Shown here in pieces: positions 952 to 24,354 of a stretch of DNA of 43,918 nucleotides; position 1 is the stretch's first letter; every line of letters begins with the position of its first letter. The stretch comes from Ruminococcus sp. (lineage in GTDB: Bacteria > Bacillota > Clostridia > Oscillospirales > Ruminococcaceae). The notes under the pieces were generated by a model. It made no database searches, was not told where the DNA came from, and saw only the letters and a program-made list of their open reading frames with translations. The stretch covers positions 1 to 43,918 of the forward strand of contig JAFUYP010000002.1 in NCBI GenBank assembly GCA_017470535.1. Reading direction: 5' to 3'. The position numbers were made by a program, and so were the translations under genes.

Positions 952-1222
952 GATAACGTTAGCAGAATAACCAGCAAGAAAATGCCTGTTTTACGGCTTT
1001 TTAGATAAAGCCTTTCAATAAAATTCTTTGACAGCAGTGATTTCAAGCCTAAATATGATAACGCTGTCCTCTCGCATTTACGCTGTTTGCGAGGGAAATC
1101 AGCCAATGCCGCCCCAAAAACGGCATGATCTATCGCTGTATATAAGAAATCGTTATCATATATACAGCTCTTTATAAAATTTATTTATATCTATCAATAA
1201 TGATTATATATATCACCACTTG

Positions 1223-1251
1223 TTGACAAAACAGCTTATATGTGGTATTAT
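1223..1251 (+). promoter_or_regulatory. Promoter of the LysR regulator gene
   Basis: TTGACA at 1223-1228 and TATTAT at 1246-1251 are separated by 17 bases; an overlapping TATAAT at 1249 is also possible. AAAGGAG follows before the ATG at 1284. The rest of the 418-base divergent region is AT-rich with no gene. Confidence 0.65.
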
Positions 1252-11775: not shown

Positions 11776-11817
11776 AAGCTGAGCCTGTGAGTATTCTCTC
11801 ACGGACTCAGCTTTTTT
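11776..11817. terminator. Bidirectional terminator between the EamA and ANTAR genes
   Basis: AAGCTGAGCCTGTGAG pairs with CTCACGGACTCAGCTT over 16 positions with one mismatch and one G-U; loop TATTCT. T-runs follow on both strands. The minus-strand stem begins in the stop codon of the ANTAR gene, so it ends the long glutamate synthase operon. Confidence 0.88.
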
Positions 11818-12388
11818 CAAGTATCTCTTCTGCCACAGCACGTTTTGTCATACATCTGTCCATAGCGGTCTTTTCAATGAGCCTGTGTGCCTGCTCCTCG
11901 GTCATTCCCTGCTGCGATATGAGCAGCCACTTCGCACGGTTGACTATTCGTATCTCCTGCATTTTCTCTTCAAGTGATACCGTCTTTTTCTTTGCTTTTT
12001 TGAGCCGCTCGTTCGCACTTTCGAGCCAGTCGAGCGCCTGCTCCATGCTCTGGCGTGACAAAGGCTTTGACAGTGTGAAAATACCGTTTTGGCACACACG
12101 GTCAAATATCTCACCGTAGTATTTTTCGGGTATTATCAACAGCACCGCCATAGTGCCCGAACCGCTGTGATCTATTGCTAAGCGTATGCCGTTCTCGTCA
12201 GGCAGAGGGGAATTGATTATCAGAAAATCAAAATTCCTGTCGCTGAGCCGTCTGCGTGCGCTGCTGACACTGCCCTCAAGCTCCATATCTATCCGCTGAC
12301 GCAGCGAGAGCAGCTTTGCGGTATCATCGTTGAATCTCGGCTGCGAAGAAACCACCAGTGCTGTGTACCTACGCATTTTAAGTTCCAC
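11807..12388 (-). CDS. ANTAR domain RNA-binding regulator with a degenerate receiver domain
   Basis: 193 residues. Residues ~8-120 are receiver-like, but the phosphate-accepting Asp is replaced: the strand reads FLIINSPLPD with Asn59 in that place, while the switch Lys108 in LSKPL remains. After a coiled segment (~120-150) the C-terminus is an ANTAR domain: the NRAKWLLISQQGMTEEQAHR stretch and the following helix KRAVAEEIL are the RNA-binding signature. ANTAR proteins stop transcription terminators from forming in leader RNAs. It is the last gene of the nitrogen operon, 11 bases after glnA, starting at GTG 12388 (AAGGGGGA six bases before). The operon's own leader has a strong terminator, its most likely target. 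Confidence 0.9.
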   Translation of the reverse strand: MELKMRRYTALVVSSQPRFNDDTAKLLSLRQRIDMELEGSVSSARRRLSDRNFDFLIINSPLPDENGIRLAIDHSGSGTMAVLLIIPEKYYGEIFDRVCQNGIFTLSKPLSRQSMEQALDWLESANERLKKAKKKTVSLEEKMQEIRIVNRAKWLLISQQGMTEEQAHRLIEKTAMDRCMTKRAVAEEILEKS

Positions 12389-12399
12389 AGTAGTCCCCC

Positions 12400-13608
12400 T
12401 TAGCCGCAGTAAATATCTATAAGACGCTTTGGCAGATGAGCCTTGATAAATTCGCTCTGCCTTGCTGCCTGCTTAGCTTCCTCTATGGTCGCAGGCAGCT
12501 TTTCGTATTTATCTGAAAGCTCCCTGCTGTCATCAGTCATATTGTCCTCCGATACAGGCGGCAGATACATACCGTTTTTGTACCCGTCAAGTCCTGCATA
12601 GATGAGCAGCGCAAATGCCAGATACGGATTAGCAGTCGGGTCGGGGGATCTCAGCTCTGCACGGCGGTATTCACCGCTTGCCGCAGGTATCCTTACAAGC
12701 TGCGAGCGGTTCTCGCTCGACCATGAGATGTACTTTGGCGCCTTGTGACTGCCAAGACGCTTATAGCTCTCATAGCATGGGTCAAGAAACACCGTCATCG
12801 CCCTAATATGTTTAAGTATCCCTGCTATCACCGACGGGAGGATAGTATGGTTCTTGTCGCACTTGACTGAAAGATTTATATGGTAGCCGCTGCCTGCCTT
12901 GTCAGCAAGCGGCTTCGGTGAAAAATCCGCATACAGCCCGGCTGCCCCTGCGACCGTCTTGACCACCGTTTTGAAAGACATCGCATCATCAGCCGCAGCA
13001 AGTGCATCGTCATAGTGGAAATCTATCTCGTTCTGCCCGGGACCTTCCTCGTGGTGCGAGCTTTCAGGGTGTATGCCCATCTGTTCAAGTGTCAGGCATA
13101 TCTGCCGCCTTACGTTCTCGCCCTTGTCGTCGGGGGCAATGTCCATATACCCTGCCTTGTCATAGGGGATATGCGTAGGCTCGCCGTACTCGTCGAGCTT
13201 GAAAAGATAAAACTCCAGCTCAGAGCCGAATGAAAATTCAAGCCCGGCTTCCTTTGCATCAGCTATCGCTCTGATGAGCAGACTGCGTGTGTCGCATTCA
13301 AAAGGGCTTCCGCCCGGCTTTTTAATGGAGCAGTACATTCTCACGACCCTCCCCTGCTCAGGCCGCCACGGCAGCACTGAGAGAGTATCGGGGTCGGGAA
13401 ACAGCAAAAGATCCGACCTTGCTTCGTTTGCAAAGCCCTTTACCGCCGATGCGTCAAAAGCTATCCCCTGCTCAAACGCACGTTTAAGCTCGCCCGGCAT
13501 AACGGAGATGTTCTTCTGCACCCCGAATGCGTCACAGAACGCAAGCCTGATAAACTTTACATCCTCTTCCCTTGCGTACTCGATTATCTCTTCAAAAGTG
13601 TAATTCAT
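12400..13608 (-). CDS. glnA: Glutamine synthetase, type I
   Basis: 402 residues, a short GSI. The N-terminal beta-grasp region (VKFIRLAFCDAFGVQKN) is followed by the catalytic domain with the FSFGSELEFYLF metal site, HHEEGPGQNEIDFHYD (ammonium/glutamate site), GSGYHINLSV (ATP binding, conserved His), and RIPAASGEYRRAELRSPDP containing the late arginines and Glu. It makes glutamine from glutamate, ammonium and ATP in the cytoplasm. It sits between the GXGXG subunit of glutamate synthase and the ANTAR regulator, so the GS/GOGAT cycle is encoded in one operon. The adenylylation-type Tyr loop of enteric GlnA is not evident. Start ATG 13608 with an AGGAGC-type site. Confidence 0.93.
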   Translation of the reverse strand: MNYTFEEIIEYAREEDVKFIRLAFCDAFGVQKNISVMPGELKRAFEQGIAFDASAVKGFANEARSDLLLFPDPDTLSVLPWRPEQGRVVRMYCSIKKPGGSPFECDTRSLLIRAIADAKEAGLEFSFGSELEFYLFKLDEYGEPTHIPYDKAGYMDIAPDDKGENVRRQICLTLEQMGIHPESSHHEEGPGQNEIDFHYDDALAAADDAMSFKTVVKTVAGAAGLYADFSPKPLADKAGSGYHINLSVKCDKNHTILPSVIAGILKHIRAMTVFLDPCYESYKRLGSHKAPKYISWSSENRSQLVRIPAASGEYRRAELRSPDPTANPYLAFALLIYAGLDGYKNGMYLPPVSEDNMTDDSRELSDKYEKLPATIEEAKQAARQSEFIKAHLPKRLIDIYCG

Positions 13609-13626
13609 AATACTGCTCCTGTCAAT

Positions 13627-14349
13627 TTAGTTTGCAACATACATCTGCCTGTACGGGTTGCCTGAATCGGGCACTACTGTTGTGAAAGGCGAATCGAGCA
13701 GCGCTTTAAGATCATGGCCGAAGTATGTGCAGAAGTGCCTTAAAAAATGCTCTATCTGCGCCATGTCCTCATCAGTTGACGGGTGGGTGTGTACCTGCTC
13801 GGGGAACCTTATCCCCTTGCAGTCTGATCTTAAAAACATCTTGCCGCCGTGCATACCGGTAGAGGGAAAGTTGCCCACTATCGGTCTGTCATCATCATAA
13901 AGCCCCAGCACTATGATAGTGCCGCCTGCCTGATACTCCCCGAGAAAGCTGCCTGCCTTGCCGCCTATGACGAGTGCCGGCTGCTTTTGCTCGTAGGCCT
14001 TCATATGTATGCCGGCTCTGTACCCGGCATTCCCCTGAACATAGATGTGTCCGCCCCTCATCGCATACCCGACAGCGTCGCCTACATTTCCGTGAATAAC
14101 TATCGCACCGTCGTTCATGGTGTCGCCTACTGCGTCCTGTGCATTGCCCATGACCTCTATGCGTGCGCCGTTTAAATATGCGCCCAGCGCATTTCCGGGG
14201 ATACCGCTTACGGTTATCTCACATTCCGAGATACCTGCTGCAAGAAACCTCTGCCCCAGGCAATCTGTTATGCTGCATTTTCCTCTGCCGGCTTTTCTCA
14301 GCGCTTCATTAAGCTCCTTATAGTCAAGTCCCGATGCGTTGATATTCAT
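13627..14349 (-). CDS. Glutamate synthase GXGXG (alpha subunit C-terminal) domain protein
   Basis: 240 residues, corresponding to only the last domain of a GltB large subunit. The right-handed beta-helix is obvious from regularly spaced Gly-rich repeats: GNALGAYLNG, GNAQDAVGDTMNDG, GNVGDAVGYAMRGG and GNAGYRAGIHMKA. In complete GltB this domain helps shape the ammonia tunnel. Here it is a separate gene, as in archaeal and many clostridial split glutamate synthases. It shares one base with the upstream FAD reductase gene (TAATG), and glnA follows 18 bases later. Confidence 0.9.
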   Translation of the reverse strand: MNINASGLDYKELNEALRKAGRGKCSITDCLGQRFLAAGISECEITVSGIPGNALGAYLNGARIEVMGNAQDAVGDTMNDGAIVIHGNVGDAVGYAMRGGHIYVQGNAGYRAGIHMKAYEQKQPALVIGGKAGSFLGEYQAGGTIIVLGLYDDDRPIVGNFPSTGMHGGKMFLRSDCKGIRFPEQVHTHPSTDEDMAQIEHFLRHFCTYFGHDLKALLDSPFTTVVPDSGNPYRQMYVAN

Positions 14350-15584
14350 TATACCACACCTCCGAGTTTTTTTCTACGAATTTCTTTTGAATAAATTGTG
14401 AGCGAAGGAGATATTTTCATTCTCCTGACATCAATTTCGTCAAGCGGAGTCTTTTCCCTTACAAGTGAAGTGTATATACCTGCACGGCTTACATCACCTA
14501 TGATGATGTAGCCTGCGAGCCTGCCGTCCTTGATAAAAAGCCTTCTTATGCTGTTTTTTTCCTTTTCCTCAAAGACCTCGCTCGTTTCCGGGCAGCTGCC
14601 TGCCGAAACGCAGTGCAGCCCGAAAAACCCGATGGAGTTCATAGGTATAGCATCATTTATCTCACTGCTGCCGCCTGCCATGTTGATACCGGCGCACCTG
14701 CCCTGCATATAGGCATTAGGGAGTATCGCCAGCACCCTGTTCTCACCGGTCGAGCTGTCAAAGCCCTGTGTGCAGTCGCCTGCGGCATATATGCCGTCTA
14801 TACTTGTTTTCATCGAGGTATCTATCATGATACCTCTGTCCGTATCGCACCCTGCGTCCTTTGCAAGCTGAGTGTTCGCCCTTACACCGACCGCCAGCAC
14901 AAGTACGTCAAATTCCGCCTTTTTGCCGCTTTTCATAACAGCATTATTCTTGTCAAACCTCTTTACCGTGTCACCAAGCATAAAGCTGATGCCGTTTTTT
15001 TCAAGATGCTTTTGCATGACCCCGGCACACTCATTATCAAGTATGCTCGAAAGCACTCTGTCAGCAAGATCGCATACCGTCACCGATGCCACACGCTTTG
15101 CAATGCCCTCAGCGCATTTTAGCCCTATAAGACCTGCGCCGACTATAAGCACACGGCTCTTTTTGCCAATAGCCTTTTCAAGAGCGAGCGTGTCGTCTAT
15201 CGTCATGAATGTAAATTTCTTCTCCACCGTGTCAAGCCCCTCGAATGGCGGCACGAACGGCTCGGACCCTGCCGCAATGCAGACAGCCTTGCAGCCTATC
15301 TTCTCACCATTATCAAGAGTGACCTCTTTTGCTTTCATGTCAGCAGATACGGCATTGCCGTAGATAACTGTCACCTTGTTTTTCTTGTAGAAATCCTTCG
15401 GGCGGTAGTTCATTTTTGAGATAGTCGTTTTGCCTTCAAGATAGTATGAGATGAGCGGTCTTGAATATACCTCGTGCTTTTCCTTTGAGATGACTGTAAT
15501 GGGCGTGTCACTATCGACCGACCTTATCCCCTCGATGCACCCTGCTGCCGCTACACCGTTGCCTATCAAAACATATCCGTTCAT
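14349..15584 (-). CDS. FAD/NAD(P)-dependent oxidoreductase (rubredoxin reductase-like)
   Basis: 411 residues. Two dinucleotide folds are seen: YVLIGNGVAAAGCIEGI for FAD at the N-terminus and VLIVGAGLIGLKCAEGI for NAD(P)H near residue 150. IYAAGDCTQG near residue 290 closes the FAD site. This is the pyridine nucleotide-disulfide reductase superfamily without the redox-active CxxxxC pair, like NADH:rubredoxin/ferredoxin reductases. In this operon it takes the place of the GltD small subunit and probably passes electrons from NAD(P)H through the adjacent ferredoxin to the synthase domain. The 4-base overlap with the ferredoxin gene supports a complex. Confidence 0.88.
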   Translation of the reverse strand: MNGYVLIGNGVAAAGCIEGIRSVDSDTPITVISKEKHEVYSRPLISYYLEGKTTISKMNYRPKDFYKKNKVTVIYGNAVSADMKAKEVTLDNGEKIGCKAVCIAAGSEPFVPPFEGLDTVEKKFTFMTIDDTLALEKAIGKKSRVLIVGAGLIGLKCAEGIAKRVASVTVCDLADRVLSSILDNECAGVMQKHLEKNGISFMLGDTVKRFDKNNAVMKSGKKAEFDVLVLAVGVRANTQLAKDAGCDTDRGIMIDTSMKTSIDGIYAAGDCTQGFDSSTGENRVLAILPNAYMQGRCAGINMAGGSSEINDAIPMNSIGFFGLHCVSAGSCPETSEVFEEKEKNSIRRLFIKDGRLAGYIIIGDVSRAGIYTSLVREKTPLDEIDVRRMKISPSLTIYSKEIRRKKLGGVV

Positions 15585-16021
15585 GCTCTTTCCTGCCTTT
15601 CCTCATAGACTATCGCTGCATTTGGGCAGCCCTTTACGCAGGCAGGCTCGCCGCAGGTGTTTTGCATACAAAGCTCACACTTGCTTGCCGCCCCGTCAGG
15701 TCCGGGCGCTACCGCACCATACGGGCATACCAGCACACAGGTAAGACAGCCGACGCATTTGCTTTTGTCTATCACGACAGTTCCGTCCTTTACCGAGATA
15801 GCGCCTGCGATACAGCTTTTTACGCATAAGGGATCCTTGCAGTGCCTGCACGATACAGCATAGGTAACACCGTCCGCCTCCTCGATATGTACATTCGGGA
15901 ATATCTGCTTGCCCTTGAGCGCCTTTACCATATCATCTACACCCGAATTTGCATAGGCACAGTTATATTCACACAGGTGACAGCCTAAGCACCACTGCTC
16001 GTTTACATATACTCTTTTCAT
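15581..16021 (-). CDS. Polyferredoxin-type 4Fe-4S protein of the glutamate synthase complex
   Basis: 146 residues with four cysteine groups: C11-C14-C17-C21 (CLGCHLCEYNC), CRHCKDPLCVKSC, CVGCLTCVLVCP and CELCMQNTCGEPACVKGCP. That is enough for four [4Fe-4S] clusters in the HycB/DmsB-like arrangement. It has no signal peptide or membrane part and would act as an electron wire in the cytoplasm. Its place between the synthase and the FAD reductase genes, with 4-base overlap to the latter, suggests it links the two. The start ATG 16021 follows AAGGAGGC. Confidence 0.9.
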   Translation of the reverse strand: MKRVYVNEQWCLGCHLCEYNCAYANSGVDDMVKALKGKQIFPNVHIEEADGVTYAVSCRHCKDPLCVKSCIAGAISVKDGTVVIDKSKCVGCLTCVLVCPYGAVAPGPDGAASKCELCMQNTCGEPACVKGCPNAAIVYEERQERA

Positions 16022-16033
16022 AGCTCTGCCTCC

Positions 16034-17539
16034 TTATTCGCCGGCGTGGGAGATGCCGAGTATCTCCAGCTCTTTTGTGTTTAGCCCCACGCCCCTGAGC
16101 ATAAGTCTGTTTCCACGCAGGCTCTCGATGGAGTTTATCCCCATGCCGCCCATAAGCTCCTTTATCTCATGCCGCCATGCAGTCATAAGATTTACAAGCC
16201 GCTGCGAGCCTATGTCGGGGTTGAGCCTTTTCACAAGGTCGGGATTCTGCGTTGCTATGCCCCAGTTGCATTTGCCGCTCTGACAGGTGCGGCACAGGTG
16301 ACAGCCGAGTGCAAGAAGTGCCGCTGTCGCAACATACACCGCATCTGCACCGAGCGCTACTGCCTTTACGACATCTGCCGCAGAGCGCACGCTGCCGCCG
16401 ATAACGAGGGATACGTTGTTTCTTATCCCCTCATCACGCAGCCGCTGATCGACTGATGCAAGTGCAAGCTCTATCGGTATGCCGACATTATCCCTTATGC
16501 GTGTAGGTGCTGCACCCGTGCCGCCGCGGAACCCGTCTATCGCTATGATGTCAGCGCCGCTCCTGGCGATACCGCTGGCGATAGCTGCGATATTATGCAC
16601 CGCTGCAACCTTGACGATGACAGGCTTTTTGTATTCCGTCGCTTCTTTGAGTGAATAAACAAGCTGCCTGAGATCCTCGATAGAATATATATCATGGTGC
16701 GGTGCAGGCGATATAGCGTCAGAGCCTTCCGGTATCATTCTTGTGCGTGATATGTCGCCTACTATCTTAGTACCCGGCAGATGTCCGCCGATACCGGGCT
16801 TTGCGCCCTGACCCATTTTTATCTCTACGGCGGCAGCCGCTTCAAGATAATCCTTATGCACGCCGAATCTTCCCGACGCTACCTGCACCACCGTGTTAGG
16901 TCCGTACACATAAAAATCCTCATGCAGACCGCCCTCACCGGTGTTGTAGCATATACCAAGCTCCGTCGCTGCCCTTGCAAGGGAAGCGTGTGCGTTGTAG
17001 CTTATAGAGCCGTAGCTCATCGCCGAGAACATCACAGGCATCGAAAGCTCGAGCTGCGGAGCTATCTCTGTTATGATATTGCCGTCCTCATCACGCTTTA
17101 TCCGCTCAGGCTTTTTGCCGAGGAATACCTTCGTTTCCATAGGCTCACGCAGAGGGTCGATAGGCGGATTTGTCACCTGGGAAGCATTTATAAGTATCTT
17201 GTCCCAGTATACCGGCAAAGGCTTAGGGTTGCCCATTGATGAGAGCAGCACGCCGCCGCTGTTTGCCTGCTTGTATATCTCCTTTATCGTGCTGTCAGAC
17301 CAGTTGGCGTTCTCACGCAGACGGCAGTCGCTCTTGACTATTTTGAGCGCCCTTGTCGGACATAATGACACACACCTCTGGCAGTTGACGCATTTGCTTT
17401 CATCAGACAGCATAACGCCCAGCTCTGCATCAAAGCGGTGTACTTCGTTGGCACACTGTCTTTCGCAGACCCTGCACGCTATACATCTTTCCTTGTTTCT
17501 TTCTACCTCAAAATCGGGATATATAAACTGCTCACGCAT
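16034..17539 (-). CDS. Glutamate synthase FMN domain with N-terminal ferredoxin (split GltB)
   Basis: 501 residues. Two N-terminal cluster motifs, CIACRVCERQC (C19-C29) and CVNCQRCVSLCP, form a ferredoxin-like head of about 75 residues. The rest is the FMN-binding synthase barrel of GltB: PVMFSAMSYGSIS, NTGEGGLHEDF, QGAKPGIGGHLPG, IAIDGFRGGTGAAPT and the late cysteine loop CHLCRTCQSGKCNWGIATQ, which carries the 3Fe-4S cluster in full-length GltB. It converts 2-oxoglutarate and ammonia to glutamate. The ammonia must come from the separately encoded glutaminase domain upstream, with which it shares one base. This is the archaeal/clostridial split type. Confidence 0.92.
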   Translation of the reverse strand: MREQFIYPDFEVERNKERCIACRVCERQCANEVHRFDAELGVMLSDESKCVNCQRCVSLCPTRALKIVKSDCRLRENANWSDSTIKEIYKQANSGGVLLSSMGNPKPLPVYWDKILINASQVTNPPIDPLREPMETKVFLGKKPERIKRDEDGNIITEIAPQLELSMPVMFSAMSYGSISYNAHASLARAATELGICYNTGEGGLHEDFYVYGPNTVVQVASGRFGVHKDYLEAAAAVEIKMGQGAKPGIGGHLPGTKIVGDISRTRMIPEGSDAISPAPHHDIYSIEDLRQLVYSLKEATEYKKPVIVKVAAVHNIAAIASGIARSGADIIAIDGFRGGTGAAPTRIRDNVGIPIELALASVDQRLRDEGIRNNVSLVIGGSVRSAADVVKAVALGADAVYVATAALLALGCHLCRTCQSGKCNWGIATQNPDLVKRLNPDIGSQRLVNLMTAWRHEIKELMGGMGINSIESLRGNRLMLRGVGLNTKELEILGISHAGE

Positions 17540-18630
17540 CAGAATTTACCCTCCTTGACTGTTACTATAACAGGCTCACCGCCTGCCGGCGCATAAAGGT
17601 CTTCGGCATCAGGCTCCATTACCCTGATAGCCGCCTCCTCGCTTGCGATATATACCTTGTCGTCCTTTTGCGCTGTGACCATTGATCTTAGCTTCAGCCT
17701 GTCATTGAGCGCCATAAGTCCTCCGTTCCAGCCGTACACTATCGAAAACGGTCCTGTGATGAGCAGGCTCGGGAAAACAGTCCTCAGATATGTGAGCCGC
17801 TCCTTTTCCTTTTCGGGCTTAGCATTTATCGTGCTCCAGAACGGTGCTGCGATGACAGATGCAGCTTCTTCGAGCGTCAGCCCCTGCCGCCTGATAAGAT
17901 AGTCAAGTATGTATGTGATGACCTCTGTATCTGTCTGTAAGGTGCATTTGTAGCCGAACATCTCGATAAATCTTCTGTTTGCGTCGTATGACGAGATCTC
18001 ACCGTTGTGAACTATCGAATTATCAAGCAGTGAGAACGGGTGCGCACCGCCCCACCAGCCGGGGGTGTTGGTCGGGTATCTTCCGTGTGCTGTCCATGAA
18101 TAGCCCTCGTATTCTTCAAGCCTGTAAAAAAGCCCTACGTCCTCGGGGTAGCCCACCGCCTTGAAGCAGCCCATGTTCTTGCCGCTTGAAAAGACATATG
18201 CGCCATTCATCTCGGTGTTTATCTTAACGACAGAGCGTGCGGCGAATTCCTTTTCGTCCACCTGCTCAGATTCCACCATAGACCTCAGCGGTGACAAGAA
18301 ATATCTGTATATCACCGGCTCGTCTGTTATCTCGGGTATCTTTCTTGTCGGGATAAGCTCGCCCTTTACGACCTCAAAGCGCTCCTTCAAGTACGCCTCG
18401 CACTCCTTGCGTGAGGTGCGGTCATCAAAGAAAATATGAAACGCATAAAAGTCCTTGTACTCAGGGTAGATGCCGTATGCCGCAAAGCCGCCGCCCAGAC
18501 CATTTGATCTGTCGTGCATAGGCTTCATCGAATTGTAGATGACATCGCCCGTAATGCCCTTGCCCTCTCTTGAAATAACAGCCGCTATCGCACAGCCCGA
18601 GGGTATCCTTACTTCTCCTTCTCTAACCAT
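17539..18630 (-). CDS. Class II glutamine amidotransferase subunit of split glutamate synthase
   Basis: 363 residues from ATG 18630, chosen because AAGGAGAG lies just upstream; an in-frame extension to 18726 runs through the leader terminator and is not credible. The Ntn-hydrolase pattern is complete: the probable nucleophile Cys13 in PSGCAIAAV, TAHGRYPTNTPGW (Arg loop), VHNGEISSY (oxyanion Asn-Gly) and LQTDTEVITYILDYL (Asp of the glutamine pocket). The nucleophile is not residue 2, so a 12-residue propeptide must be cut. It releases ammonia from glutamine for the next gene's synthase barrel. First gene of the operon; expression is probably gated by the leader terminator. Confidence 0.9.
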   Translation of the reverse strand: MVREGEVRIPSGCAIAAVISREGKGITGDVIYNSMKPMHDRSNGLGGGFAAYGIYPEYKDFYAFHIFFDDRTSRKECEAYLKERFEVVKGELIPTRKIPEITDEPVIYRYFLSPLRSMVESEQVDEKEFAARSVVKINTEMNGAYVFSSGKNMGCFKAVGYPEDVGLFYRLEEYEGYSWTAHGRYPTNTPGWWGGAHPFSLLDNSIVHNGEISSYDANRRFIEMFGYKCTLQTDTEVITYILDYLIRRQGLTLEEAASVIAAPFWSTINAKPEKEKERLTYLRTVFPSLLITGPFSIVYGWNGGLMALNDRLKLRSMVTAQKDDKVYIASEEAAIRVMEPDAEDLYAPAGGEPVIVTVKEGKF

Positions 18631-18645
18631 GAATGATCTCTCCTT

Positions 18646-18714
18646 ATAAAAAAATAAATGGCGCACTCTCCCACACCCCGGACAATTCCGGAGTATGGGA
18701 GAATGAACGCCATT
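18646..18714 (-). terminator. Strong leader terminator of the glutamate synthase operon
   Basis: Read on the minus strand, AATGGCG at the base pairs with CGCCATT, then after a small internal loop 15 further pairs (TCTCCCATACTCCGG with CCGGGGTGTGGGAGA, some G-U) close a 6-base loop AATTGT. Seven Ts follow directly. It lies between the promoter and the ribosome site of the first gene, so transcripts should stop unless prevented. An alternative small hairpin, GAG-AATG with CATTCTC, uses the 5' arm and would compete with it. Confidence 0.88.
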
Positions 18715-18728
18715 GCTCATTTGCAAGT

Positions 18729-18757
18729 ATTATACCGCAAAAATTCATTTTTGTCAA
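18729..18757 (-). promoter_or_regulatory. Promoter of the glutamate synthase operon
   Basis: On the minus strand TTGACA (18757-18752) and TATAAT (18734-18729) are separated by exactly 17 bases, a full consensus. Transcription would begin near 18722, just before the leader terminator. Confidence 0.85.
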
Positions 18758-18830: not shown

Positions 18831-18860
18831 TTGACAGATCTAAGCATTAAGATGTATACT
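18831..18860 (+). promoter_or_regulatory. Promoter of purF
   Basis: TTGACA (18831-18836) and TATACT (18855-18860) with an 18-base spacer, divergent from the glutamate synthase promoter. Confidence 0.7.
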
Positions 18861-18883
18861 AAATAATACAGGGGCAGCGTCGT

Positions 18884-18914
18884 CCCGGGAACACCCGGGG
18901 GCACTGTCTTTTTT
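18884..18914 (+). terminator. Possible attenuator in the purF leader
   Basis: CCCGGG AACA CCCGGG (18884-18899) is a perfect 6-bp, GC-only hairpin with a 4-base loop, and a run of six Ts begins 9 bases later. The leader is only about 65 bases, too short for a known purine or PRPP aptamer, so what would control it is unclear. Confidence 0.5.
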
Positions 18915-18934: not shown

Positions 18935-20353
18935 ATGAGCAGTCTGCACGAGGAATGCGGAGTTATAGGATTATGGTCGCCTGTCAGGGCGGCGCTTGCT
19001 GATACGGTCTACTACGGGCTTTATGCCTTGCAGCACCGTGGACAGGAGGGGTGCGGTATCGCCGTTTGTGATGACGGCGTTATCACAGCGCATAAGGACG
19101 TAGGTCTGGTGGGTGAGGTGTTTGACCATGCAGCACTGTCACAGCTGCCGGAGGGGAATATGGCGGTCGGTCATGTAAGGTACTCCACCACCGGCGGCAA
19201 TGAGCGGCGCAACTGTCAGCCGATAGTCGTAAATCATATGAAAGGCAGAATGGCACTCGCACATAACGGCAACCTGTCGAATGCCTATGCTCTAAGACGT
19301 GATCTTGAGCTGTCAGGGGCGATATTCCACACTACGTCCGACACGGAAACTATCGCCTACATCATAACAAAAAAGCGCCTTGTCACCCCCTCTATCGAGC
19401 AGGCGGTGCTTGCCGCTATGGATATCATCGAGGGGGCATACTCTCTGGTAGTGATGTCGCCTTCAAAACTCATCGCCGTAAGAGACCCCCACGGATTCAG
19501 ACCGCTGTGCTTCGGCAAGCTGCCGGACGGTGCATATGCTGTTGCATCAGAAAGCTGTGCGCTCACAGCGATAGGCGCTGAGTTTGTGCGTGACATTGAG
19601 CCGGGCGAGATGATAGTGTTTTCATCGGACGGTATAAAGAACGACACCTCCCACTGCGGCAAAACAGACAGGAGCATCTGTATTTTTGAGTACATATACT
19701 TTGCACGCCCTGACTCTGTTATAGACGGCGTATCTGTCCACAAGGCACGGCTGCGTGCAGGAGAGATACTTGCCATGAGCCGCCCTGCCGATGCGGATAT
19801 TGTTATAGGCGTACCTGATTCCGGGCTTGATGCAGCGCTCGGGTTTTCAAGGGCGTCGGGCATACCCTACGGCATAGGGCTTATAAAGAACAAATACATC
19901 GCCCGTACCTTTATCTCTCCCACTCAGTCGGGCAGAGCGGACAAGGTACGCATAAAGCTCTCAGCCGTCAGCGAAACTGTCAGGGGCAAACGTGTCATAC
20001 TGGTCGATGACTCGATAGTGCGTGGTACTACCGGCGGCAGGATAGTTTCGCTCCTGCGTGAGGCAGGTGCTAAGGAGATACATTTCCGTGTTTCCGCACC
20101 GCCTTTTGAGCACCCGTGCTACTATGGGACGGATATAGATTCCGAGGAAAACCTCATCGCCAGCCGACATACTCCCCAGGAGATAGCAGCACAGATGGGT
20201 GCAGACAGCTTAGGCTTCCTGCCGGTAGAAAGACTCGGCGAGCTTATCGGCAGCTCAGGCTGCTGCAAAGCCTGCTTTAACGGCAGCTACCCCACCGCCA
20301 GACCTGAAAACGCCTTCAAGGACAAATATGAGATGAAGATAAATGACGCCTGA
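18935..20353 (+). CDS. purF: Amidophosphoribosyltransferase
   Basis: 472 residues, the normal length. Class II glutaminase: the propeptide MSSLHEE precedes Cys8 in ECGVIGLW, then LQHRGQEGCGIAV, VGHVRYSTTG, LAHNGNLSN and TSDTETIAYII. The phosphoribosyltransferase half has the PRPP loop VILVDDSIVRGTT. Cysteines in ICIFEYIYFARPDS, HPCYYGTD and GCCKACFNG match the [4Fe-4S] ligands of the Bacillus-type enzyme. It catalyses the first step of de novo purine synthesis. It stands alone here, away from other pur genes, and is divergent from the glutamate synthase operon. Start ATG 18935 after GGGAGG. Confidence 0.95.
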   Translation: MSSLHEECGVIGLWSPVRAALADTVYYGLYALQHRGQEGCGIAVCDDGVITAHKDVGLVGEVFDHAALSQLPEGNMAVGHVRYSTTGGNERRNCQPIVVNHMKGRMALAHNGNLSNAYALRRDLELSGAIFHTTSDTETIAYIITKKRLVTPSIEQAVLAAMDIIEGAYSLVVMSPSKLIAVRDPHGFRPLCFGKLPDGAYAVASESCALTAIGAEFVRDIEPGEMIVFSSDGIKNDTSHCGKTDRSICIFEYIYFARPDSVIDGVSVHKARLRAGEILAMSRPADADIVIGVPDSGLDAALGFSRASGIPYGIGLIKNKYIARTFISPTQSGRADKVRIKLSAVSETVRGKRVILVDDSIVRGTTGGRIVSLLREAGAKEIHFRVSAPPFEHPCYYGTDIDSEENLIASRHTPQEIAAQMGADSLGFLPVERLGELIGSSGCCKACFNGSYPTARPENAFKDKYEMKINDA

Positions 20354-24166: not shown

Positions 24167-24170
24167 ATAA

Positions 24171-24332
24171 ATATCTTCAGGGCAGGGTGAGATTCCTGAC
24201 CGGCAGTTAAAGTCTGCGAGCCGCAAGGCTGACACGGTGAAACTCCGTGACCGACGGTCACCTGACGGGTGTTAGCCCCGACGGTGCGCTGTTGTCTTTG
24301 CAACAGCGATAGTCCGGATGAAAGAAGAGTAT
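24171..24332 (+). ncRNA. FMN riboswitch (RFN element)
   Basis: All conserved parts of the RFN element are visible: ATCTTCAGGGCAGGGTG at the 5' end, GATTCCTGACCGGCAG, GAGCCGCAAGGC, GGTGAAACTCCGTGACCGAC, GGTTAGCC-like gggtgttagccccgac, a variable hairpin with the GCTGTTG/CAACAGC stem, and the closing AGTCCGGATGAAAGAAGA. P1 closes between ATATCTTC and GAAGAGTAT. It binds FMN and shuts down the rib genes, here through the terminator immediately downstream. Confidence 0.97.
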
Positions 24333-24354
24333 TTTGTGATATGTATGCTTTATC

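Follow-up and report, generated by a model that had tools for sequence, protein, structure and literature searches.

The question raised by this locus is how a strong terminator placed ahead of an ammonia-assimilation operon could be overcome, and whether an ANTAR protein encoded at the far end of the operon could do so through a single RNA hexaloop. The operon (the gltS operon, minus strand) encodes a split glutamate synthase (GOGAT), a GlnA-like protein related to glutamine synthetase (GS) and the ANTAR protein, and lies in a 43,918-nucleotide stretch of contig JAFUYP010000002.1, which we call the window. The source is a Ruminococcus-like bacterium whose genome is incomplete (2.1 Mb, 76% complete); the first-gene protein has its closest named relatives in Ruminococcus metagenome-assembled genomes and R. 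albus strains (88-91% protein identity). Based on our results, the leader of this operon is probably an ANTAR-controlled transcription attenuator of a reduced, single-hexaloop kind. We observed its anatomy, its conservation, two mutually exclusive structures, no second loop above chance, leaders of the same type shared with other genes, and an association with ANTAR genes.

The sigma-70 type promoter, TTGACA-17-TATAAT at 18729-18757 (minus strand), matches the consensus at 12 of 12 positions, as the initial annotation of this DNA had said, and is found at the equivalent site in nearly all aligned relatives. About 7 nt past its -10 element begins a hairpin absent from that annotation (18702-18721, minus strand; recognized by motif conservation and folding), in which a 7-bp stem, AAUGAGC/GUUCAUU, closes the hexaloop AAUGGC (18714-18709). 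This loop has A at position 1 and G at position 4, the published rule for hexaloop recognition by ANTAR proteins (PMC3369931), and the hairpin by itself folds at -3.5 kcal/mol (on 18724-18704). The terminator occupies 18714-18657 and has 26 pairs (7 + 19 flanking a 2-nt bulge), with UAUUUUU next in a U-rich tail that runs to 18650. A 22-bp terminator at 18646-18714 had been proposed earlier; a strong terminator before the first gene is indeed present, with a length and limits that differ slightly from those given. The leader as a whole (18724-18650) folds at -45.7 kcal/mol (z -9.24), which none of 200 dinucleotide shuffles equalled. Because the hexaloop and the 3' arm of the hairpin are the 5' arm of the terminator, the two structures are mutually exclusive.

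These structures are kept in relatives. We compared 99 leaders of homologous first genes (L022 was dropped as partial; totals of 100 count its second piece), and across them the post-promoter letters AAUGAGC-AANGRY-GUUCAUU are nearly invariant. By pattern, the hexaloop motif is present in 93 of the 99 (88 strict and five with a GGGC stem), and variant hexaloops were recognized post hoc in L010, L012 and L020. A test that ignores the letters, asking for an A1-G4 hexaloop on a stem of at least 4 bp that overlaps a terminator, is passed by 93 of 100 leaders versus 12.5% of mononucleotide shuffles. When no pairing is required, 93 of 100 gltS leaders and 21 of 30 leaders of type III GS (GSIII) genes have a promoter followed by AANGRY within 45 nt; in those leaders stem pairs 1-4 are paired in 95.7% (gltS) and 94.0% (GSIII) of cases, and pairing drops to 27-66% and 4-67%, respectively, when the 3' arm is slid by -2 to +3. 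The stem letters swap between the two classes (pair 4 GC versus CG, pair 5 UA versus AU) and the loop stays constant. In an alignment of 77 leaders, pairing reaches 95.7% for the hairpin and 91.9% for the terminator, the latter with 58 double-change cells versus a shuffled mean of 17.8, counts that come from related sequences and are not independent events. Absence of the hairpin from homologous leaders had been named beforehand as the finding that would speak against antitermination; instead, the terminator is conserved with covariation and the antiterminator hairpin competes with it. In 71 of 93 gltS leaders the hexaloop starts 13-15 nt past the -10; with this spacing the hairpin would have its base at about +1 of the predicted transcript. 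In R. albus 8, two tandem copies of promoter and leader precede the gltS operon (L040, 8680-8985), each with a hexaloop and a terminator-like hairpin.

In the mechanism that we propose, RNA polymerase would start at the consensus promoter and the first ~20 nt would fold as the hairpin with the hexaloop AANGRY. If active ANTAR protein were bound to the loop, the hairpin would persist and hold back the 5' arm of the terminator, and the operon would be read through the split GOGAT, the GlnA-like protein and the ANTAR protein itself; if it were not bound, the far more stable terminator would form. The one hexaloop would thus be the antiterminator hairpin (P2), with no upstream recruitment hairpin (P1), and the same switch would govern, in trans, a regulon of ammonia-assimilating and glutamine-using genes. 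From the sequences, we infer binding of the loop by the ANTAR protein, read-through upon binding and nitrogen shortage as the signal.

The single loop sets this leader apart from published targets of ANTAR antitermination, which are described as dual hexaloops (PMC3369936, PMC3369931, PMC8164766). A second A1-G4 hexaloop hairpin was found downstream in 8 of 88 leaders versus 8.5 expected from shuffles, which is chance level, and upstream in 4 of 88 versus 5.2 expected. As a positive control, a dual-hexaloop detector was applied to ten eut loci, four of which have a full ANTAR match. It recovered two textbook pairs in one of these four, beside the ANTAR gene (L312), and no pair in any of the other nine loci, three of them with a full ANTAR match; one of 20 shuffled strands also scored, and an earlier, narrower scan had given one weak pair of no clear meaning. 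The loops C-AATGAT-G, C-AAAGAT-G and C-AATGAA-G, present in dual-hexaloop eut leaders beside the ANTAR gene, resemble the gltS loops and favour recognition by an ANTAR protein. The alternative that survives best, although we consider it improbable, is that P1 is supplied by a second, non-canonical ANTAR hairpin, whether the terminator's apical loop, a far-downstream hairpin or a loop of another transcript such as the divergent purF leader. It draws on the structural work on EutV, which redefined the binding unit as one hexaloop, with the P1 recruitment hairpin still needed, so that antitermination requires both loops, and which allows single-hexaloop sites only where a moving polymerase sets no time limit (PMC8934654). 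The back-to-back hexaloop leaders of the window, the tandem copies in R. albus 8 and two GSIII leaders with extra loops at least 65 nt apart also suit it. On the other hand, second loops occur at the chance frequencies just given, the apical loops differ in length and sequence, and the leaders are mostly single copy.

The last gene of the operon (11807-12388, minus strand) does encode an ANTAR protein, as first annotated: its C-terminal domain matches PF03861 at 61.1 bits versus a cut-off of 27.3. The remainder is a pseudo-receiver, in which an alignment to the mycobacterial antiterminator PDB 1s8n spans part of the receiver region and no Pfam receiver family matches at E 0.001. Asn59 stands where a receiver has its phosphate-accepting Asp; among 78 aligned ANTAR proteins this position is N in 73, S in four and C in one, and never D. 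Nor is the usual acidic pair present (Ser14-Ser15 in the window); Lys108 is retained in 75 of the 78. Without an acceptor Asp the usual receiver phosphorylation is impossible, in agreement with the initial annotation, and gating by a partner or ligand would be expected, as in AmiR. Instead of phosphorylation, a partner protein may carry the signal to the ANTAR protein, and the GlnA-like protein is perhaps that partner. Regarding the RNA contacts named for EutV (PMC8934654), our own mapping finds equivalents of Lys149, Glu160 and Met172 (K153, E164, M176); Tyr164 is replaced by His168, as in the aligned AmiR, Lys143 and Lys147 by arginines (R147, R151), and the equivalents of Arg142 and Arg168 are lost. 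A second ANTAR protein of the same genome (contig 62; L002, 1477-2049) has the same IINSPL pseudo-receiver motif and is encoded upstream of a fructose-bisphosphate aldolase gene.

The candidate partner is encoded next to the regulator. The GlnA-like gene (12400-13608, minus strand; 402 aa; Pfam Gln-synt N and C) and the ANTAR gene are adjacent on one strand, no more than 120 nt apart, in 45 of the 51 loci holding both, and 267-519 nt apart in the other six. The protein aligns to type I GS (GSI) enzymes, its best solved relative at E 4e-103, and scores under the GlnA equivalog cut-off (340.6 versus 429.15 bits). Alignment to solved GS shows that the catalytic flap Glu of GSI ('GYEAP') is replaced, by Lys in 51 of 54 proteins (Lys289 in the window), Arg in two and Asn in one, in a flap that is one residue shorter; a deletion of ~12 residues is also present. 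The other GSI active-site residues are largely kept: E132 in 56 of 56, E187 in 55, H243 in 53, R306 and R320 in 54 each, and E130 and E194 in 50 each. In B. subtilis GS, flap Glu304 pairs with Arg62 in the glutamine-inhibited form and both serve glutamine sensing (PMC9249791); the Arg62 position aligns with Asn61 in the window protein. Loss of the flap Glu together with Asn61 makes ordinary synthetase activity doubtful and a sensing role attractive, so that this altered-flap protein beside the regulator is a concrete candidate for the sensor of the ANTAR protein. A strict rule is contradicted by six ANTAR-linked GlnA proteins from a different clade (L135, L136, L142, L143, L188, L197), in which the flap Glu is retained. 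In L238 and L239 (R. albus KH2T6 and AR67), the GlnA-like gene that precedes the ANTAR gene encodes Arg in the flap; L235 (R. albus 8) also has a fructose-bisphosphate aldolase gene nearby. A much wider proposal, which we regard as possible and rather doubtful, is that P1-less ANTAR antitermination, with one hexaloop at the 5' end of the transcript sufficing, runs a whole nitrogen regulon of Clostridia, gated by this co-encoded pseudo-enzyme paralogue of GlnA (flap Glu to Lys) and not by phosphorylation, with GSIII as the working synthetase.

Leaders of the same type precede other genes. In the genome of the window itself, the GSIII gene (L264) has a promoter, the hexaloop AAAGGC and a terminator; among 30 GSIII genes of relatives picked by protein match only, 20 have a hexaloop and an overlapping terminator versus 9.3% of shuffles. 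A looser pattern gave 18 matches in this genome versus 12 in the reversed control, with stems of at least five pairs only in the window and GSIII leaders. A covariance model of the gltS leader, R1, was then run on 297 genomes of the family and matched in 75; in ten chosen genomes it matched in all ten at E 0.1, with an ANTAR match in nine. From 70 R1 loci fetched (some sites twice), 65 have the hexaloop core and promoter by pattern, L162 and L181 have the core only when the pattern is relaxed and pairing is demanded, and L197, L199 and L205 have none. R1 sites with a hexaloop lie before glnA-ANTAR (L188, L198, L201, L202), before a lone glnA in one genome with a separate copy at the gltS operon (L163, L175), before long fused glutamate synthases called by homology and length (L195, L206 and, by the relaxed pattern, L181), before carA (L183), pyrG (L196) and asnB (L200), and before purC-purB-glnA-ANTAR (L136; purC and purB identified by eye). 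Pattern matches that R1 did not report lie before glnA-ANTAR in G030 (L135) and an ABC transporter in G014 (L134), and divergent leaders, noted post hoc with pairing required, lie before GSIII, glutamate dehydrogenase (GDH; two in tandem) and pyrG-purF. In R. albus KH2T6, a weak R1 match (L229, E 0.012) precedes the gene for citrate synthase, which feeds 2-oxoglutarate. GSIII, GDH, AsnB, PyrG and CarA would make a coherent regulon, which argues for ANTAR control of these leaders. In arrays of C. thermocellum, the GSIII gene Clo1313_2303 (typed in PMC9888227) moves with the gltS genes (PMC4676874, Table 2), which fits such a regulon.

Two pattern matches were discarded: a second gltS loop match in the genome of the window, as chance because it lies inside the EF-G gene, and one in G052, which falls within coding sequence in a genome that has no ANTAR match. 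Contig 13 of G042 has two pattern matches. On contig 41 of the source genome (L253, about 1140-1230, minus strand), a strong promoter, an AAAGGT loop closed by three base pairs and a terminator-like hairpin rich in T precede a gene whose protein resembles an AraC-type response regulator; this could be a further site.

Several points weigh against the single-hexaloop attenuator, beginning with the P1 requirement of EutV described above. The detector was positive in just one of the four eut loci with ANTAR, so a degenerate second element could escape it. Covariation of the hairpin within gltS leaders is slight (nine cells altered on both sides), and L014, L016 and L081 have no convincing hexaloop, though genomes G012 and G059 have ANTAR genes. 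A search of NCBIfam at E 0.001 left the ANTAR protein unmatched. In C. thermocellum, the GDH gene did not follow the cluster, and glnA (Clo1313_2031) is named in one sentence among the unchanged genes (PMC4676874). Finally, the co-occurrence that speaks for the attenuator, with ANTAR genes in 72 of the 75 leader-positive genomes versus 145 of the remaining 222 (Fisher p 2e-8), partly reflects linkage, since the ANTAR gene is often in the same operon, and comes from related genomes; no ANTAR match was found in leader-positive G065, G082 and G109, nor in G324. In this last genome (that of L034), the gene order and the leader are present and the ANTAR match is absent from a 3.7 Mb assembly.

The three exceptions among the 75 suit a second alternative, that the terminator is controlled by another RNA-binding factor, a ligand or leader translation and that the ANTAR gene regulates something else; AUGAGCAAAGGCGUUCAU could also be read as a start codon. 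We judge this to be quite unlikely, because the A1-G4 hexaloop is the published ANTAR rule, Rfam gave the leader only chance-like matches and no family at gathering score, and the AUG, which the GSIII class does not have, sits at the extreme 5' end with no space for a ribosome-binding site. Least probable of all is that the inverted repeat at +1 is a repressor's DNA operator beside a separate, constitutive attenuator: the site just past the -10 is classic for an operator and many letters are conserved, but pair 2 is G-T in 76 of 93 gltS leaders (a G-U wobble in RNA, and G-C in GSIII leaders), which fits RNA and not a palindromic DNA site, the conserved AANGRY centre is asymmetrical, the stem letters vary by gene class with pairing kept, and the loop doubles as the 5' arm of the terminator.

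The initial annotation described a self-contained loop; this is not supported, as the same leader type precedes GSIII in the same genome and other genes in relatives, two R. albus genomes carry the ANTAR gene and the gltS operon on different contigs, and some genomes have glnA-ANTAR under its own leader. The positive feedback in cis that it proposed remains plausible: among 54 colinear loci, none has a leader of this type between the GXGXG gene and glnA, nor before ANTAR where checkable, so that the ANTAR protein would depend on its own read-through unless weaker internal promoters supply it.

The operon begins with the class-II glutamine amidotransferase subunit of the split glutamate synthase (17539-18630; ATG at 18630; Pfam GATase_2), in which a conserved Cys noted by eye lies at position 13 (PSGCAI) and not at the N-terminus, suggesting a cleaved propeptide. 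There follow, all on the minus strand, the ferredoxin-type glutamate synthase flavin mononucleotide (FMN) domain with an N-terminal 4Fe-4S (16034-17539; Pfam Glu_synthase, 469 bits, and Fer4), a 4Fe-4S protein (15581-16021; Pfam Fer4 families), a pyridine nucleotide-disulphide oxidoreductase (14349-15584; Pfam Pyr_redox_2) and the GXGXG subunit (13627-14349; Pfam GXGXG). In the opposite direction, purF (amidophosphoribosyltransferase; 18935-20353, plus strand; TIGR01134 at 510.7 bits, above cut-off) is preceded by a similar attenuator, also missed by the initial annotation, at 18831-18908: a promoter with 11 of 12 consensus letters, TTGACA-18-TATACT (18831-18860), and a fold of z -4.0 with the hexaloop AGCGTC at 18876-18881 (A1, G4). 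This loop was seen only in the window and L231; 14 other purF genes of at least 55% identity have no such leader directly upstream and follow other sequence, apparently pyrG in some. The sole Rfam match in the window to reach its gathering score is an FMN riboswitch (24169-24333, plus strand; 87 bits versus 66.2).

ANTAR control of nitrogen genes in other bacteria, which the initial annotation had mentioned, is in print for GS/GOGAT in Clostridium. NitR mediates ANTAR-type induction of GS/GOGAT genes by antitermination under nitrogen limitation (PMC6316151); in C. saccharobutylicum and C. acetobutylicum (glnA-nitR) it shares with our locus an ANTAR gene beside glnA, and an antisense RNA is described for that system. 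In C. thermocellum, an antiterminator role has already been suggested for Clo1313_2030 (PMC4676874), and Clo1313_2036-2030, annotated as amidotransferase, Fd-GOGAT (ferredoxin-dependent), 4Fe-4S, two further gogat genes, glnA and ANTAR, has the gene order of the window (PMC4676874, PMC9888227); a leader is not described there. What is apparently new is the single-hexaloop leader, as neither a single-hexaloop ANTAR attenuator nor this leader was found in searches of the open-licence literature. Such leaders would explain how abundant rumen and gut bacteria could jointly control GSIII, GOGAT, GDH and genes that use glutamine.

Among better-known circuits, the GS-GlnR system of Gram-positive bacteria likewise has a regulator encoded with glnA and uses GS as a glutamine sensor through Glu304 and Arg62 (PMC9249791). 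GlnR, however, is a DNA-binding repressor, and with Lys at the flap and Asn61 at the Arg62 position, sensing by the GlnA-like protein would have to differ. The closer likeness is to the dual-hexaloop leaders (EutV/eut, NasR/nasF, AmiR/amiE), which share with the gltS leader the A1/G4 hexaloop, the short stem and the overlap with the 5' arm of an intrinsic terminator (PMC3369931, PMC3369936), as well as an ANTAR gene in the genome and a nitrogen theme; AmiR, in addition, resembles the window ANTAR protein, whose pseudo-receiver has no phospho-acceptor. In contrast to these systems, the gltS leader has one hexaloop, in a hairpin that begins at about +1 and leaves no transcript for P1. Kept over many genera in this position, it offers a direct test of the P1 requirement described for EutV (PMC8934654).

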